Assembly (NCBI GenBank): GCA_947073515.1
Contig: CAMTMC010000030.1
Location: forward strand, 1 to 35,024
Length of the DNA: 35,024 bases
Reading direction: 5' to 3'
DNA from: an uncultured bacterium
GTDB taxonomy: Bacteria > Bacillota > Clostridia > Oscillospirales > Oscillospiraceae
The position numbers and the translations under genes are program-made. Under the pieces are notes generated by a model. That model had not been told where the DNA came from and ran no database searches. It worked only from the letters and a program-made list of their open reading frames with translations. Below, in pieces: positions 22,872 through 24,590 of the stretch (positions within the stretch are counted from its first letter, which is position 1; every line of letters starts with the position of its first letter).

Positions 22872-22976
22872 AGTTTACCTCCGGTTTTATGGCTTGGATG
22901 AGGGTCAAGAGGGGAGGGGGAAGAAGGAGTTTCTTTCCTCTCCTCCCATGACTCTCAGTATTTTTTGAGGTTAATA

Positions 22977-23258
22977 TTATAAATTAAGGGAATTCCCACT
23001 TAAAGCGCCCCCCTCGATCCTGCCCCGCAGGGCCGTGGAGGACAGGGGGGAGATGTAGACCACCGGCTCCCCCCACCGGCTGTCCGCCAGGATAAAAGAC
23101 CGGGGTAAGTCCTCAGTGAGCCAGATGGCCCGGCCCTCCCGTTCCGCCCGCTCCAAAAACTCCCGGGTTTTAAAGGCCCAGCTGGCGTTGTCCAGATCAA
23201 AGATCCCCAGGATATCGCTGTATGGCACCACGGCGGATTTTCCCAGATGGATATACAT
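22977..23258 (-). CDS. remB: Extracellular matrix regulator RemB (DUF370, YaaB)
   Basis: A 93-residue protein of the DUF370 family found between recF and gyrB in many Firmicutes. The N-terminal core MYIHLGKSAVVPYSDILGIFDLDN is diagnostic, followed by TREFLERAEREGRAI and SFILADSRWGEPVVYISPLSSTAL. It is thought to be a DNA-binding regulator related to RemA (matrix and osmoprotection genes in Bacillus). The ribosome binding site GGAGGAAATTCC directly before the ATG overlaps the stop codon of the relic recF tail, showing the ancestral tight recF-remB junction. Confidence 0.92.
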   Translation of the reverse strand: MYIHLGKSAVVPYSDILGIFDLDNASWAFKTREFLERAEREGRAIWLTEDLPRSFILADSRWGEPVVYISPLSSTALRGRIEGGALSGNSLNL

Positions 23259-23269
23259 GGAATTTCCTC

Positions 23270-23353
23270 CTAAATCAGCCGCCCGCTCTGGATATGGAAG
23301 GCCCTTCCGCCCTCCAAACTCTCCAGCTTCTCCTCCTCGCAGCAGGTGATGAA
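23270..23353 (-). pseudogene. Relic duplicate of the recF 3' end
   Basis: On the minus strand this reads FITCCEEEKLESLEGGRAFH-I then QSGRLI and a TAG stop (23270-23272). The 21 residues from F to I are identical to the tail of the intact recF, but with 8 third-position synonymous differences in 63 bases; the relic has G or C at all 8, the intact copy A or T at 7. An in-frame TGA lies five codons upstream (plus 23366-23368), so it is not translated. Its position against remB and its GC3 suggest it is the native recF end that was displaced. Confidence 0.85.
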
Positions 23354-23477
23354 TTTTCCCACGGATCAGGCCCCGTGGGAGCCCTTTGGGATTAAAATCC
23401 TCAGGCGAAATAAATTCGCCCTCCGGAAATTCTCCGCCGCTTCCGCGGCTGCGAATTTACGGCGCGTTCGCGCCGGC
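23354..23477. repeat. Palindrome-rich spacer between the two recF tails
   Basis: 124 bp with five short hairpins: CCCACGG/CCGTGGG (23358-23379), GGATT/AATCC (23389-23400), GGCGAA/TTCGCC (23404-23420), GCCGC/GCGGC (23436-23449) and GGCGCG/CGCGCC (23461-23474). No coding capacity. It looks like a small non-autonomous palindromic element (REP/MITE-like) or a scar left by a larger element. Confidence 0.6.
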
Positions 23478-24590
23478 TCAGGTATTCATCACAATCGAAC
23501 CATTACGGATATGAAACGCTCTTCCACCCTCTAAACTCTCCAGTTTCTCCTCCTCACAGCAAGTGATGAATACCTGCCCGCCCCGGATACGGTTGAGGAC
23601 AAAGGCCTGGCGTTTTGGGTCCAGCTCAGACAGCACGTCGTCCAGCAGCAGCACCGGCCACTCCCCGCTCTCCTCCTGAAAAATTTCCCGCTGGGCCAGC
23701 TTCAGGGACAGGGCCGCCGTCCGGGTCTGGCCCTGGGAGGCGTAGGTCTTGGCGTTCTGCCCGCCGATGTCCACCAGCAGATCGTCCTTGTGGGGCCCGG
23801 ACAGGCACTGGCGGCTGTCCAGCTCCGCCTGGCGGTGCCGCTCCTGGTGTTCCAGCAGCTCCGGCAGAATCCCCCTGGGCTGGGCCATGGGGTCGTTTAC
23901 CCCGGATACCGTCTCGTAGGTCAGGCCCAACTCCTCCCGCCCGCCGGAAAACTCCTGGTGGATGGCCGGGGCGCGCTCCCGCAGACGCTTGATAAAGTGG
24001 GCCCGGTAGTGGATCAGGATGGCCCCGGTCTGGGCCATGCGGAGGTTGAAGTCGTCCAGGGTCTGGAGCAGGGAGGGGTTCTCCCGCCAGTCCCGCAAAA
24101 TCCGGGTCTTGTGGTCATACAGGCGGTTGTACTCCGCCAGCGCCTGGACGTACCTGGGCCGGAGCTGACAGATGGCGCTGTCCAGGAACCGCCGCCGGGC
24201 GGCGCTCCCCTCCCGGATAAGGTACAGATCCTCCGGGCAGAACAGCACTGTGGTGAGGATCCCGGCCAGCTCCCCGGCGGTTTTCAATCTCACCCCGTTG
24301 GAAAACAGCTGGCGGCCCCGGCCCCGGAACAGTTTGGCCTCCAGGGTAAAATCCCGGTCCCGGCTGAACACCTCCCCTTTAATAAAGGCGGAATCGGTGT
24401 CCAGCATAATCATTTCCCGGTCATACCGGGCCCGGTGGGACCGGGCGGAGGACAGGTAGGCGATCCCCTCCAGCAGGTTGGTCTTGCCCTGGGCGTTGTC
24501 GCCGTAGATCAGGTTCACCCGGGGGTCAAAGGCGGCCTCCAGGCGAGGGTAGTTACGGAAGTGGTCCAGCTCCAGCCCCTTGACGATCAT
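23478..24590 (-). CDS. recF: DNA replication and repair protein RecF
   Basis: A 370-residue SMC-like ATPase that loads RecA at gaps with RecO/RecR. Walker A is GDNAQGKT at residues 30-37, the ABC signature region is in ASQGQTRTAALSLKLAQ and Walker B is VLLLDDVLSELD at about 311-322, with the D-loop after it. The ATG overlaps the yaaA stop (ATGA). The last about 31 codons are AT-rich in third positions, unlike the rest of the gene, and a GC-rich copy of the same tail lies 124 bp beyond the stop. The protein itself appears intact. Confidence 0.95.
   Translation of the reverse strand: MIVKGLELDHFRNYPRLEAAFDPRVNLIYGDNAQGKTNLLEGIAYLSSARSHRARYDREMIMLDTDSAFIKGEVFSRDRDFTLEAKLFRGRGRQLFSNGVRLKTAGELAGILTTVLFCPEDLYLIREGSAARRRFLDSAICQLRPRYVQALAEYNRLYDHKTRILRDWRENPSLLQTLDDFNLRMAQTGAILIHYRAHFIKRLRERAPAIHQEFSGGREELGLTYETVSGVNDPMAQPRGILPELLEHQERHRQAELDSRQCLSGPHKDDLLVDIGGQNAKTYASQGQTRTAALSLKLAQREIFQEESGEWPVLLLDDVLSELDPKRQAFVLNRIRGGQVFITCCEEEKLESLEGGRAFHIRNGSIVMNT

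Follow-up and report, generated by a model that had tools for sequence, protein, structure and literature searches.

The closest functional parallel known to us for the arrangement reported here is provided by the tail-replacing endonuclease inserts of fungal mitochondria. In the sections of the published account that deal with atp6 of Allomyces and with atp6, atp9, cox2, and nad3 of Glomus, inserts encoding LAGLIDADG or GIY-YIG endonucleases are described to carry replacement C-terminal ends, the native end being left downstream and the two ends differing much more in DNA than in protein (PMC3630166). A second parallel is provided by the IS200/IS605 family. According to the part of the literature concerned with target recognition by IS608, the cleavage and target site is recognized through pairing with a 4-nt guide that lies 5′ of the base of the hairpin; the pairing takes place between DNA strands, the target sequence is kept on the left flank, and the donor site is precisely sealed on excision (PMC5934647).

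Here, we analyze a stretch of 35,024 nucleotides (the window) from an uncultured bacterium of the Oscillospiraceae (contig CAMTMC010000030.1 of assembly GCA_947073515.1), in which the recF gene has a doubled 3′ end. The doubled end is one copy of a family of elements of about 200 bases, apparently mobile, found in gut Oscillospiraceae. Like the fungal inserts as described above, the locus has an in-frame replacement end upstream and a displaced native end downstream. Unlike those inserts, the present elements contain no endonuclease ORF (the one at recF is only 217 nt long), and they are found at dozens of bacterial genes and at a phage gene, mostly with a segment complementary to the site. 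The features of the locus are as follows.

24590-23478, minus strand: open reading frame of recF (from the ORF list; gene name from the initial annotation)
23577-24590, minus strand: recF body, upstream of the element site (ORF list, alignment of relatives' DNA, protein relatives)
23563-23576, minus strand: A, the 14-nt target segment, CAGGT followed by ATTCATCAC (perfect inverted repeat with 23479-23492)
23493-23571, minus strand: XL, the replacement recF tail, in frame (65-nt repeat part at 23507-23571)
23479-23492, minus strand: A′, the guide-like reverse complement of A (inverted repeat)
23355-23478, minus strand: core of the element, conserved and structured (dispersed repeat, alignment, covariation)
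23460-23475, minus strand: core hairpin HP2 (folding, covariation)
23427-23458, minus strand: core hairpin HP3 (folding, covariation)
23399-23426, minus strand: core hairpin HP4 (folding, covariation)
23357-23380, minus strand: terminal hairpin HP5, outside the covariance model R1; the right junction of the element comes after it
23355-23571, minus strand: putative mobile unit of 217 nt, composed of the last 9 nt of A, XL, A′, and the core
23270-23354, minus strand: XR, the native recF tail, displaced and ending in a TAG stop of its own (repeat, relatives' tails)
22977-23258, minus strand: next ORF, called remB in the initial annotation (ORF list), whose ribosome-binding region adjoins the XR stop

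The direct repeats at 23507-23571 and 23290-23354 (minus strand) are 65 nt long, identical at 57 positions, and spaced by 217 nt. Our alignment confirms the observation of the initial annotation that the end of recF occurs twice: over 21 codons XL and XR encode the same residues and differ at 8 positions, all third-base and synonymous, with A/T at 7 of 8 in the functional copy and G/C at all 8 in the downstream one. Beyond the shared stretch the two ends diverge, XL running into HIRNGSIVMNT and XR into HIQSGRLI, such that RNGSI of the former corresponds to QSGRLI of the latter. XR continues into the start site of the next ORF, and its stop (23270-23272) overlaps by one base the GGAGGAAATTCCATG that starts this ORF. 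A further feature, absent from the initial annotation, is a perfect 14-nt inverted repeat (23563-23576 and 23479-23492) that brackets the functional tail. Its second arm, A′, provides the codons for the terminal VMNT of recF and two of the three bases of the stop TGA (23478-23480), and the junction lies after the fifth base of A, between 23572 and 23571 (offset of 5). Since the repeat spacing equals 217 nt and tandem units of the same kind occur at other loci, we infer a unit of this length, within which no ORF is listed.

The identity of the two tails can be judged from the relatives, to which the recF body is roughly 78-86% identical in DNA. XR is nearer than XL to 52 of the 55 comparable recF tails of relatives, with 2 ties and 1 reverse case (there are 56 distinct tails, the last of which could not be anchored). 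Moreover, the recF loci retrieved from 29 relatives each have one tail only and contain no core over the stretch retrieved, and among 64 genus genomes searched a match spanning the recF tail and the core is listed in the own genome only. The comparison of relatives' recF ends that the initial annotation had suggested is thus in line with its view that the downstream copy is the native end and that an element lies behind a replacement tail at the recF 3′ end, an inference that is right in kind. Its claim that the tail came from elsewhere is right only in part; in the rest of the family, XL is as species-specific as XR, so that donors from the same species or a close one are probable. For the recF XL, the relatives' recF tails did not yield a donor. 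Nor did relatives with an integrase-bearing element between the two tails, which had also been predicted, come to light, the 29 relatives being without a core.

The same anatomy is observed throughout the family. We surveyed 100 loci with 108 cores, searching flanks of 300 nt to the left and 330 nt to the right of the core, and the typical order is A, the gene end XL, A′, the core, and the second gene end XR. Direct repeats (at least 30 nt with at least 70% identity) flank 100 of the 108 cores, which places the doubling at recF beyond chance. With the element sequence masked, the repeats are found for 94 of the 108 cores, versus 11 of 200 randomly paired flanks, the latter matches probably including pairs from the same gene. 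The right copy begins 30-45 nt past the core in 73 cases.

These data also bear on the origin originally proposed for the locus, i.e., integration at the recF 3′ end of a larger, integrase-bearing element that was later reduced to a scar of 124 bp. Such a history would explain the presence of both a replacement tail and a displaced native tail. However, the 124 nt are found again at numerous genes and in numerous species, as a core that is conserved and covaries, and at 100 of the 108 cores the second tail is found within 330 nt, leaving no room for an intervening integrase gene. The proposal is already contradicted by these results, and we consider it barely credible.

The 8 cores lacking a long repeat comprise four without any repeat and four with a short one. 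A longer form of the element may be present at these cores, for 7 of which the sequence covers 300 nt per side. When an autonomous long form was sought, the sole outcome was a related family of repeats located beside tRNA or tmRNA genes. This related core, seen at eight loci (L072, L095, L106, L118, L128, L134, L070, and L127, from genomes G026, G019, G023, and G012), has a conserved left flank, mostly with CGGCCTTCTGGCCGG, a terminator-like hairpin downstream, and mostly no tail duplication; ARAGORN finds tRNA genes at six of the loci, a tmRNA gene at L070, and none at L127. It possibly represents an ancestor or a sister class. A separate case is the 3′ end of fusA in one genome (L133, G051), where A′ and the core are present, the right-hand tail is undetectable, and a deletion derivative is a possible explanation. 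In other genera, 20 loci hand-picked from the best-scoring matches contain 22 cores, of which 18 have a long repeat and 11 reach an A/A′ score of at least 9.

The next question is whether the two tails behave as coding sequences. A confident reading frame could be assigned at 74 of the 100 repeat-bearing loci. The element is in the sense orientation at the gene 3′ end in 67 of these, with a stop codon 20-60 nt ahead of the core model in 51, and antisense in 7, which are taken as gene 5′ ends on the basis of protein matches to lepA, era, a copper ATPase, and a racemase. The codon comparison was made for 61 sense loci (1194 codons), excluding antisense copies, inner tandem copies, and unsure frames. 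XL and XR are found to differ by 168 synonymous and 34 nonsynonymous codon changes, the neutral expectation being 29% synonymous. Polarization with other species assigns 52 synonymous and 9 nonsynonymous changes to the XL branch and 49 and 9 to the XR branch, 34 and 8 being unresolved. At 59 of the 61 loci the XR frame is intact and terminates no more than 6 codons away from the XL stop, 7 of the 61 having gaps in the tail alignment; the two failing loci (L090 and L078) have an XL stop assigned to a position within the core, probably by a frame error. The earlier argument that synonymous-only differences must predate the joining of the tails therefore holds over 61 loci. The mostly synonymous change and the intact frame indicate that XR is no drifting relic; judged from codon changes, it served as a functional end of the gene until a short time ago or occasionally does so even now. 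Neutral decay of XR is not supported, given the 49/9 synonymous excess and the 59 intact frames.

The two tails of one locus are on average 94.1% identical, whereas between species the identities are 79.7% for XL-XL, 79.6% for XR-XR, and also about 80% for XL-XR (65 pairs, with the right tail taken 25-50 nt past the core). Hence, XL and XR as a rule derive from a single species or from closely related ones, and not from a distant donor. As the XL tails of different species resemble each other no more than the XR tails do, XL as cargo generally carried between species is not supported. In comparison with XR, XL tends toward A/T (116 vs 81 synonymous positions, 35 vs 18 loci).

It is important to consider here an alternative in which a miniature element transposes with a long target-site duplication, as IS1634 and IS1549 do, or in which the gene end is duplicated in tandem, the downstream copy then decaying neutrally. 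The much higher similarity of the tails within a locus than between species is what a host duplication predicts, and XL and XR are identical at 6 of the 74 confident loci. However, neutral decay predicts mostly nonsynonymous changes, in disagreement with the polarized XR branch and the preserved frames, and A′ and the fixed junction offset are left unexplained. This alternative is thus considered unlikely.

Turning to the complementary segments, an exact A/A′ match of at least 10 nt is present at 57% of 105 loci, compared to 2.1% of 1000 cross-pairs, and 30% of the 105 loci have no exact match of at least 8 nt. The junction, i.e., the start of the right-hand tail, lies 3-7 nt into A at 56 of the 72 loci that have a repeat and an A/A′ score of at least 9. 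The part of A preceding the junction pairs with the part of A′ adjoining the first hairpin. Where A′ is detectable, the arrangement is therefore like that described for IS200/IS605 elements, with a guide beside the hairpin foot pairing with the site ahead of the junction. It differs from the 4-nt guide described for IS608 in that A′ is mostly 10-21 nt long and varies from gene to gene, and in that roughly 55-115 nt of host gene separate site A from guide A′. For a given gene site at which species differ in A, a matching difference in A′ is seen in 35 of 40 comparisons, and in another 24 A′ varies while A is constant; the helix ends were chosen by similarity, which favors matches, and pairs within a gene family are non-independent. 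Among the A/A′ mismatches, A opposite G is the commonest type (12 of 34), and it is common to three genomes at the response-regulator site.

A guide complementary to the two joined flanks is also characteristic of group I introns, which in addition have a conserved U at the splice site. The element could accordingly be a small intron-like unit with A′ as the internal guide, the spliced mRNA using XR and the unspliced one XL. As both mRNA forms would be used, both tails would stay under selection, in line with the constraint found above, and A′ is indeed complementary to both sides of the junction, mostly by 4-7 nt on the exon side. However, before the junction G is favored at the second base (41 of 56) and the third base (34 of 56), with no preference at the base immediately preceding it (T at 10 of 56). 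Group I introns are much larger than the core, and no Rfam intron match is obtained at recF. In addition, at the 7 antisense loci the RNA of the element would lie outside the mRNA of the gene. The differences at these loci are mixed overall (23 synonymous and 13 other, counted irrespective of where the start codon lies); era has 3 synonymous and no other, and lepA 7 and 1, the one being apparently before the ATG. Splicing is on these grounds improbable.

The recF core is matched at 23391-23475 by the covariance model R1 with 98.9 bits, and this copy is without the first hairpin that is present in the other seven aligned copies of its genome. A DNA search of the own genome with the 124-nt core gives 10 matches including itself, and the covariance model built from eight copies gives 13. 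Across the genus, the core is matched in 36 of 61 genomes searched (E 0.001), with up to 43 copies per genome, and across the family Oscillospiraceae in 69 of 250 genomes and 44 of 106 genera (E 1e-5). In being short, dispersed, palindromic, and non-coding, the elements are similar to REP/REPIN and other non-autonomous palindromic repeats, although we know of no REPs with gene ends or target-complementary guides. Near-identical cores are found at the same gene in different genomes or in tandem neighbors, which indicates that the element exists as gene-specific lineages. Between clearly different genes the best listed core identity is about 89%; the core pairs labeled different by the script at 96-100% are tandem neighbors in separate clusters, and the tRNA-side repeat family was left aside. 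The own genome (G000) has 13 copies, and six of the genomes that best match its recF (G016, G005, G002, G030, G036, and G003) have none; this genome may have been invaded recently.

The pairing of the core is strongly conserved. In an alignment of 108 cores (103 distinct), 98.1% of 2331 cells are paired and 311 cells show double-sided changes; sliding the pairing partner abolishes the pairing, and five covariation measures are unmatched by any of 500 shuffles, which ignore relatedness among the cores. G-U pairs account for only 21 of the 2331 cells. RNA helices usually accept more wobble pairs, and the constraint may thus act on a folded DNA strand. A search of Rfam with the region 22900-23700 gave weak, unrelated matches only (best E 0.058), with no intron and no HEARO.

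The scarcity of wobble pairs is relevant to another possibility, namely that A′ and the core form a guide RNA for an IscB-, TnpB-, or Cas9-like nuclease that cuts empty alleles. The guide is located directly 5′ of a structured scaffold and the junction has a nearly fixed offset inside the guide duplex, as would be expected for such a system. However, the 21 G-U pairs next to the 311 double-sided changes are fewer than is usual in RNA, occupied alleles retain the full A, and the families tested are missing from several element-rich genomes. IscB is found in 2 of 61 genus genomes and TnpB in 18 of 64, with no TnpB match in G027, G011, G038, G008, and G019, which together with the lack of a HEARO match at recF sets the elements apart from the OMEGA systems. 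RNA-guided homing is thus regarded as quite unlikely.

Other candidate partners are distributed similarly. Reverse transcriptase is present in 27 of 61 genus genomes, with no match in the element-rich G010, G008, G019, and G038, which distinguishes the elements from retroelements and retrons. The Y1 transposase family, which serves IS200/IS605 elements, is matched in 25 of 64 genomes and lacks a match in the element-bearing G000, G010, G008, G031, G019, and G043. RT, IscB, TnpB, and Y1 are therefore all rejected as partner, each being missing from several element-rich genomes; a distant or extragenomic Y1-type enzyme may nevertheless be conceived.

The reading that we favor, and consider rather probable on the basis of these sequence comparisons, is that of a gene-specific, non-coding mobile mini-element that is paired by its guide, homes or excises, and keeps the gene alive with its own tail. 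The unit would consist of the 3′ part of A, the gene tail XL, the guide A′, and the hairpin core. A′ would pair with A in the conserved end of one given gene, which would place the junction just inside A, 3-7 nt from its start at most loci; with the unit inserted at this point, XL would complete the gene in frame, and the native XR would stay downstream. The locus anatomy can be read as such a simple insertion. Elements would then circulate among the same or close species, either through homing into alleles that lack them or through precise excision followed by reinsertion, with XL and XR being two functional alleles set side by side. If the unit were removed precisely, the native gene would regain XR as its end, and this would account for the maintained coding capacity of XR; break-repair homing into empty alleles would leave identical traces. 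The anatomy, its recurrence, the core structure, the junction offset, and the coding constraint on both tails are observed directly, and mobility, targeting by pairing, and circulation within species are deduced from them. The weakest step is the last one, namely that the pairing possibly acts on single-stranded DNA by analogy with IS200/IS605.

A number of results count against the mini-element. None of RT, IscB, TnpB, and Y1 is present in all element-rich genomes, a host-made duplication would give the same pattern of tail identities, the relatives' tails contain no donor for the recF XL, some loci are without an A/A′ match, and the antisense loci are mixed. Furthermore, A is intact in occupied alleles, so self-targeting is unexplained unless the tandems are its result.

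Signs of mobility come from such tandems. Two cores are found in tandem at 8 of the 100 loci, and one tandem at secA has a middle tail of mosaic composition, drawn from both outer tails. Similarly, two viral contigs that are identical over 1170 upstream bases have one and two units, respectively, at the end of the terminase gene. No near-identical empty phage was found among the 80 viral-contig loci kept. The phage site is the KEHDHAMDE segment of the terminase large subunit gene (L249/L263, L250/L264, also L266 and L270).

No description of such elements was found in the full-text literature, the coverage of which is incomplete, and a family of tail-replacing, guide-bearing mini-elements is apparently undescribed. 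If the mini-element reading is right, a widespread minimal selfish DNA uses base pairing to target conserved regions of essential genes and repays with the missing gene end, and an unrecognized targeting machinery is implied. The ends of recF, infB, lepA, fusA, secA, and tsaD may then combine two alleles in a chimera, a point of importance for phylogenetic work and for annotation, and the doubled ends offer a natural test of bacterial homing cycles. We suggest more tentatively, giving it somewhat less than even chances, that the elements form a categorically new class, i.e., ORF-less homing units, each with its own 10-21-nt guide that matches the conserved end of a single housekeeping or phage gene and with a working copy of this gene end, served by an enzyme that acts on folded DNA strands. 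The host could then not easily escape by mutation and would lose nothing on insertion, which would make the elements a natural counterpart of the home-and-rescue gene drive.

The targets are mostly housekeeping genes. They include recF, infB, tsaD, pta, response regulators, fusA, alaS, uvrB, glucose-6-phosphate isomerase, and lepA, which is targeted at both ends at different sites, and further dGTPase, trmFO, asnA, xpt, rsmG, secA, leuS, era, polC, aspS, argH, pyrF, formate-tetrahydrofolate ligase, and the phage terminase; some of these names (e.g., secA, leuS, polC, and asnA) rest on partial proteins below the NCBI curated cut-off, and 3 of the 30 target proteins scanned gave no match. Different species share the same target site, and segments A like those at tsaD and infB are also encountered in other genera, as matched by the A sequence and not by gene identity. 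Finally, the lepA regions of the own genome (L006, G000:C59) and of a second genome (L052, G058:C111) are about 99% identical while their recF genes are only about 81% alike, the near-identity being due to either a recent transfer or a MAG binning error.
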